Assembly: GCF_000189635.1 (NCBI RefSeq)
Contig: NW_002476570.1
Location: 62,001 to 126,000 of the forward strand
DNA from: Tetrahymena thermophila SB210
Lineage: Eukaryota; Ciliophora; Oligohymenophorea; Hymenostomatida; Tetrahymenidae
DNA length: 64,000 nt
Direction: 5' to 3'
Below, in pieces: positions 57,191 through 58,353 of this stretch (position 1 is its first letter; the number at the start of each line of letters is the position of its first letter). A model generated the notes under the pieces. The model was not told the DNA's origin. It saw nothing but the letters and a program-made list of their open reading frames with translations, and searched no databases. Made by a program: the position numbers and the translations under genes.

Positions 57191-58353
57191 ATGAAGCTTT
57201 TGGTTTCTTCTCTAATTTTAATTGCCTTGAGTCTTTCTGCTTTGACTTTCTTAGCTTTAGAAAGACCTAGTAATGAGCTTGGAGATATGTAGAATGTTGC
57301 TATGATGTTTTTAAAATACTTACAAAGATATAAAATGCATATAATAAATCCTAAGGAATATATGTACAGGCTTAATATTTTTGCTAAAAATCTTTAAAAC
57401 ATTAAAAATCATAACTAAATTTCTAATAAACCTTATATTGAAGGGATCAACTAATTTACTCATCTAACTGAAGAAGAATTCGAGTAAACCTACCTAACAC
57501 TTCAAATACCTGCTTCTAAACAATATAAAACCTAAGAATTTTTAGGAGACGAAGTTCCTTCATCTATCGATTGGAGAGATTTAAATGCTGTTACTCCAGT
57601 CAAGAATTAAGGTTCTTGTGGTTCAGGTTATGCATTCTCAACTACAGGTGCTTTAGAAGGAATTCATAAAATATCAGGAAAAGATTGGAAAGGATTTTCA
57701 GAATAACAAATAATTGATTGTTCTAGAAAATAAGGAAATTCGGGTAAAATAAATTTTAATAAAATAAATAACCTTTTAATTTATAATTTTAAATTCTAGT
57801 TTTTTAATAAATTTTAATTATTTTATTTTAATTAAAGGTTGTCATGGAGGTTTTATGGAAAACGCTTTTGATTTTGTCATTGAAAATGGAATTTTATAGG
57901 AAAATGAGTAATTAATTTATTTATTTTATTATAAAATGATAATTTTACTTATTTACAATAAAAAACAAAAACAGTTATCCTTATGAAGGTCATGCAAACT
58001 TTAAGTGCAAAAAGAATAATTCTAATCAATAAAGTTATAAAATATAAGGCTATTACAATATAAATAAATATGATTGTAGAGGCCTTTAATAAGCTGTTGC
58101 TTAATAACCTGTCTCAGTTGCTATTGATGGTAAATTTTTGTAAAGATATCATTCTGGAATAATTGGAGACTGTGGTAGTAGTGTGAATCTAAACCATGGA
58201 GTTTTAATAGTTGGATATACTGAAGATTTCTTCATAGTAAAAAACTCTTGGGGTACAAACTGGGGTGAAGATGGTTACTTCAGAATCACTAAAACAAATA
58301 CATGTGGCATTTGCGAAGCAGCTTCTTATCCATATTCAATAAACTATTAATGA
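57191..58353 (+). CDS. Cathepsin-like papain-family protein lacking the catalytic Cys (pseudoprotease)
   Basis: Seen: exons 57191-57743, 57838-57907 and 57975-58353 join to 333 aa. A signal peptide covers about residues 1-22 ([20 protein letters not shown]). An inhibitor-type prodomain follows, including [11 protein letters not shown] and [13 protein letters not shown]. The mature part starts near [20 protein letters not shown]. The active-site block reads [12 protein letters not shown] where papains have QGxCGSCWAFS, so the nucleophile Cys is Gly (codon GGT, 57626-57628) and the next Trp is Tyr. The oxyanion Gln (codon TAA, 57608-57610), the His in [10 protein letters not shown] and the Asn in [12 protein letters not shown] are all kept. 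Known: papain-family enzymes need the Cys, so hydrolysis should be lost while the fold and secretion or lysosomal routing remain. It lies between two paralogous transporters. Confidence 0.92.

Follow-up and report, generated by a model that had tools for sequence, protein, structure and literature searches.

Gene structure and active site

The stretch of DNA that we analysed, hereafter the window, comprises 64,000 nucleotides of Tetrahymena thermophila SB210 and contains a papain-family gene on the forward strand at positions 57191-58353. Spliced and translated with TAA and TAG read as Gln, the gene has three exons and encodes 333 amino acids. Exon 1 (57191..57743) encodes a putative signal sequence, the prodomain and the start of the mature domain, and its intron position is the same as in the C262 paralogue described below. 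It is followed by intron 1 (57744..57837, 94 bp, GT-AG), exon 2 (57838..57907), intron 2 (57908..57974, 67 bp, GT-AG) and exon 3 (57975..58353), which ends with a TGA stop. No TGA codons were observed within the open frame, compared to 4-5 expected from the composition of the flanks (probability of none, 0.7-1.6%). The earlier reading of the frame as intact, made from the sequence alone, thus agrees with a clean three-exon gene with intact splice sites.

Both Pfam domains of the translated protein scored above their curated cut-offs, with Peptidase_C1 (PF00112) at residues 122-327 (220.5 bits, cut-off 20.7) and Inhibitor_I29 at residues 40-97 (57308..57481; 47.3 bits, cut-off 24.4), and the cathepsin L-type ERFNIN motif of the prodomain was complete from residue 56, placing the gene in papain family C1A. 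The N-terminus (residues 1-24, 57191..57262, end approximate) was strongly hydrophobic, with a mean hydropathy of 2.5 over 15 amino acids, and is likely a signal peptide. The homology also determines the fold of the protein. Of the signal peptide and prodomain both previously called intact, the prodomain is therefore supported by Pfam and motif, while the signal peptide is a prediction from hydropathy.

The active-site motif (57605..57640) contains Gln140, the oxyanion Gln (codon 57608-57610, bases counted on the sequence), Cys143 and, at the place of the catalytic Cys, Gly146. Direct reading and the spliced translation both gave GGT (57626..57628) for this codon, as the sequence-only reading had proposed. 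The catalytic His282 (CAT, 58195..58197) and the active-site Asn298 (AAC, 58243..58245) were found intact by direct reading and alignment numbering, so that three of the residues of an active C1A peptidase are in place (His282, Asn298, Gln140) and the catalytic Cys is absent. CHGG and NSWG stretches, which we take to line the substrate cleft, were also present in the alignment.

On either side of the protease gene, also on the forward strand, lie membrane-like frames (52225-54656 and 58869-60740) that are alike by eye and apparently related copies; a Pfam match was found for neither of these two frames. Elsewhere in the window we observed eight 5S rRNA genes, clustered and all on the reverse strand (39505-41527), overlapping long frames that repeat the translated motif RHWDFPSGPPPQYQPSLKALNFGVRMGSGVFTLVWPT and probably explaining the motif repeats. 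The snoRNA family TtnuCD17 of Tetrahymena matched over its full length (97.4 bits) on the reverse strand at 22645-22712, in keeping with the genus named in the sequence source, and six matches to tRNA, which fall into two equal-scoring sets (2 and 4), lay within 6948-13608. Two frames of the window compared with solved structures returned nothing.

Catalytic cysteine across the papain family of the genome

We searched the window's own assembly (101,022,631 bases in 445 contigs) with PF00112 and obtained at least 138 exon-level matches. The position of the catalytic Cys was readable in 109 loci, consisting of 69 aligned rows from longer stretches, a few of them fragments, and 40 short ones inspected visually; C214, C221, C312, C158, two C81 matches and the fragment C156:429199 were left out of the count. 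Cys was observed in 103 of the 109 loci, Gly in 2, Ser in 2, Asp in 1 and Asn in 1. Among the aligned rows 67 carried Cys, one Gly (the window gene) and one Asn (L025), while the short stretches included 36 with Cys, along with L078 (Asp), L086 (Ser), L087 (Ser) and L091 (Gly).

The five other loci without Cys differed in what else they retained. L091 (CDSGWAFS, codon GGA), presumably cathepsin X-like from its motif, kept His and Asn by eye, as did L078 (CACDTAFS), in which a Cys stands one residue before the Asp. By eye, Gln replaced His in L087 with Asn retained, and both His and Asn were lost in L086. Tyr replaced His in L025, where the active-site Asn was retained, this row being very divergent and its alignment less sure. 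L091 together with L100 occupies C242:205743-206560, with a Cys-bearing copy at 206816 of the same contig; L078 with L102 occupies C400:142470-143075, and L025 (C129:1166201-1166809) has a hydrophobic stretch upstream of its C1-like domain. Loss of the Cys at 6 of 109 loci means that it recurs in the family, in several unlike genes, and Cys-to-Gly replacement is seen in two unlike subfamilies. A search for the CGSG pattern returned the window and two further places (C157 and C300), and neither of these contigs is in the PF00112 list.

Closest paralogues and origin of the glycine

A maximum-likelihood tree of 59 mature domains placed the window gene in a clade with C262, C156a and C156b (support 99/99), within which C262 grouped with the C156 pair (98/85). 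Long rows were flagged in the tree, L025 above all, then L013_1520, L050_1493, L052_1483 and L031_1087; none of these falls in the four-gene clade, and two, L013_1520 and L031_1087, belong to the 14 further rows that make up an 18-row group with it. The catalytic Cys was present in the three other clade members and in all 14 further rows, suggesting that the ancestor carried Cys and that the Gly arose on the branch leading to the window gene. The change was earlier described as a single base, TGT to GGT, and the codon is indeed one base away from that of the C156 paralogues. Besides the catalytic one, six cysteines are common to all 18 rows, and all six are retained in the window gene; Cys143, which we take to be disulfide-forming, is among these common cysteines.

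The three closest paralogues read CGSCYAF, CGSCYAF and CGCCYAI at the motif, and Tyr after the Cys was also observed in L048_4396, outside the four-gene clade. CGCCYAI belongs to L055 (C156b), which keeps the catalytic Cys but differs at two sites otherwise invariant in the clade, one now an additional Cys and the other Ile. We considered Tyr147 as a part of the inactivation and rejected it, since Cys-bearing paralogues carry the Tyr too, leaving only the Cys-to-Gly change private to the window gene. The comparison with CGSCWAFS offered by the sequence-only reading accordingly holds for the Cys but not for the Trp. The C262 paralogue (L053) resembles the window gene in 56% identity over 329 positions, both intron positions, the prodomain motif and the Tyr after the nucleophile position, and differs from it in having the catalytic Cys and a GC3 of 0.320 compared to 0.192.

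Outside the genome, a scan of genome contigs for orthologues found none, its 12 relatives all being prokaryotic and no more than 43% identical in the best segment, and a scan of viral contigs returned no relative. Within it, a relative in the sister clade (C156:429199) is a broken remnant with an internal TGA and short frames, indicating that decay does occur near the window gene's clade.

Selection and evolutionary rate

Of 40 sites at which the remaining 17 rows of the tree group do not vary, the window gene departed at 2 (C146G and A260G), and each of those 17 rows departed from invariant sites at 0-3 of 38-41. From the shared node, the root-to-tip distance was 0.43 for the window gene and 0.33 plus 0.095 (about 0.43) for C262. 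Relative-rate tests against C262 with seven outgroups gave no significant difference in five, with the window gene faster with C394 (chi-squared 6.6) and slower with L014_7114 (chi-squared 4.5). We fitted a codon model with our own script (8 sequences, 303 gap-free columns, topology fixed by hand after the tree), which gave an omega of 0.070 on the window branch and 0.048 for the background, values that are rough because synonymous changes are close to saturated (pS 0.735 between the window gene and C262) and the model is home-made. An omega of 1 on the window branch was rejected (2dlnL 8.2), while equality with the background was not (2dlnL 0.31). Taken over its full length, the window branch shows purifying selection, and its rate of change is close to that of the Cys-bearing sister.

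Allowing a neutral stretch at the end of the window branch gave the best likelihood at zero length, with drops in lnL of 0.5, 1.7, 3.5 and 6.0 at 0.05, 0.10, 0.15 and 0.20 substitutions per site. The same procedure on the Cys-bearing C262 was steeper, with drops of 2.2 at 0.05 and 5.0 at 0.10. These likelihoods indicate a protein constrained over most of its history, and a recent relaxed stretch since the loss of the Cys still fits. The claim that the gene is not a decaying pseudogene, for which dN/dS had been proposed as the check, is consequently upheld for the branch as a whole but not for the time after the Cys was lost, where a final neutral stretch of about 0.1 fits nearly as well. GC3 of the window gene was the lowest of 59 family coding sequences, level with C156b, pointing to a low level of expression or to weaker selection on codons, although total GC was 0.06 and 0.10 in the two introns and, in the flanking sequence, 0.17 and 0.13.

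The alternative that survives best is a recent loss of function, in which the Cys disappeared lately from one member of a very large redundant family, and this member now drifts with no visible decay yet. We consider it less likely than the reading preferred below. Making the last 0.05-0.10 substitutions per site neutral lowers lnL by just 0.5-1.7, the lowest GC3 would suit a drifting gene, and the family is large enough (at least 138 matches) and loses the Cys often enough (6 of 109 loci) for such an event. Three other Cys-less cases (C278, C269 and L025) have more catalytic residues gone, and the sister clade holds the broken remnant. Against recent loss, the fit is nevertheless best when the neutral stretch has zero length, the gene retains its zymogen features and its splice sites, and just one other clade-invariant site is altered.

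Discussion

A second alternative is that a one-base sequencing or assembly error has disguised an ordinary active cathepsin L-like protease, given that GGT is read from one assembly, the window's own, and that a single substitution separates it from the codon of the C156 paralogues; however, the frame is otherwise without anomaly, and five other loci of the same genome lack the Cys, one of them with Gly, so that its loss recurs in the family and an error here is improbable. Least probable of all is a residual or altered chemistry, such as a water activated by His/Asn or the use of Ser145 or Cys143 as nucleophile, for although His, Asn and Gln are kept and Ser145 adjoins Gly146, Ser145 is the usual Ser of CGSC enzymes, Cys143 is one of the cysteines common to all 18 rows, and the F. 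hepatica procathepsin L1 engineered to carry Gly is described as inactive (PMC2621350).

The reading that we prefer, with a probability of roughly 0.55, is a procathepsin L-like protein of the secretory or phagolysosomal route with a normal zymogen fold, no cysteine protease action and a binding or regulatory role, its Gly derived from a Cys-bearing ancestor. A pseudoprotease is defined as having a protease domain without an essential catalytic residue (PMC8621943). Judged by sequence, the window protein fits that label, or that of a non-peptidase homologue of C1A, and it would lack cysteine protease action because its nucleophile is Gly. It would enter the secretory route and most likely fold as a normal zymogen, as an engineered Cys-to-Gly procathepsin L is reported to have done. 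The protein could presumably not remove its own prodomain, leaving either a stable proform or trimming in trans by active paralogues. The intact prodomain and substrate cleft might then serve to bind, but not to cut, peptides, prodomains or active cathepsins, which is the weakest step of the proposal; the balance tilts towards a binding role, but only modestly. The outcome may be regulation of paralogues, shielding of substrates, or no role.

The closest precedent comes from Fasciola hepatica. In PDB entry 2o6x, cathepsin L1 of this fluke, the alignment showed a CGSG motif (CGSGWAFSTTG) in a chain with the prodomain; we take the entry to be the Gly25 procathepsin L1 variant, with which the letters agree. 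The engineered Cys-to-Gly (Gly25) protein is described as correctly folded, inactive and incapable of self-activation (PMC2621350). It resembles the window gene in having Cys-to-Gly in the same motif and the prodomain in the chain, but it was made in the laboratory, whereas the window gene is natural and from a ciliate. In soybean P34 the catalytic Cys is likewise replaced by Gly. This protein, also called Gly m Bd 30K, is described with a pre- and pro-region and without the catalytic Cys and enzymatic function (PMC2292165), and elsewhere its membership of the protease family is termed uncertain (PMC10931198). P34 is thus like the window gene a papain-family protein without the catalytic Cys, but it is a protein of the plant seed vacuole. 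Plasmodium SERA5 is reported to have an important non-enzymatic role with a papain-like domain that lacks the catalytic Cys (PMC5500368, PMC4671257); it carries Ser rather than Gly, and its role in egress was shown by gene disruption, whereas the window gene is known from sequence alone. Inactive C1 homologues with mutated catalytic sites in gut tissue are described for the scabies mite (SMIPP-C) and for beetles (PMC5956821, PMC4336737). SMIPP-C form a multicopy family and the beetle changes include Cys-to-Ser, unlike the single Gly-bearing gene of the clade described here.

We found no account of papain-family pseudoproteases of Tetrahymena in the open-licence literature, among the matches listed. 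The cysteine proteases that T. thermophila secretes were studied in 2006 with an active-site probe bound covalently at the catalytic Cys (PMC1403784), and since such a probe needs that Cys, the study would probably have missed the window protein. The inhibitor-decoy role offered by the sequence-only reading would call for cysteine protease inhibitors that such a decoy could titrate. A search of the genome for cystatin (PF00031) and chagasin (PF09394) returned no match with exon-by-exon matching, under which the cystatin control was silent and the chagasin control appeared in 1 of 14 genomes; the result lends the decoy no support and, with controls so weak, does not weigh firmly against it. I29 matches listed in the genome numbered 98, free-standing and protease-attached ones unsorted. 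A broader and more doubtful proposal, which we offer as speculation, is that papain-family pseudoproteases have evolved several times in Tetrahymena and form a small set there (6 of 109 loci without the Cys, two of them separate Cys-to-Gly changes). The window gene would then be a naturally locked zymogen, nature's equivalent of the laboratory Gly25 procathepsin, whose prodomain and uncut cleft bind and so control its active paralogues, secreted or phagosomal.

Malaria parasites, soybean, mites and beetles are all reported to have papain-fold proteins that lack the catalytic Cys, with a non-enzymatic role shown for SERA5, and the window gene is a further example. If it is just a recent loss in a redundant family, the case would be ordinary. 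Because it involves one gene of a free-living ciliate that is open to genetic work, and a close Cys-bearing paralogue is there as a control, it would allow a direct approach to the question of what a non-cutting protease does.
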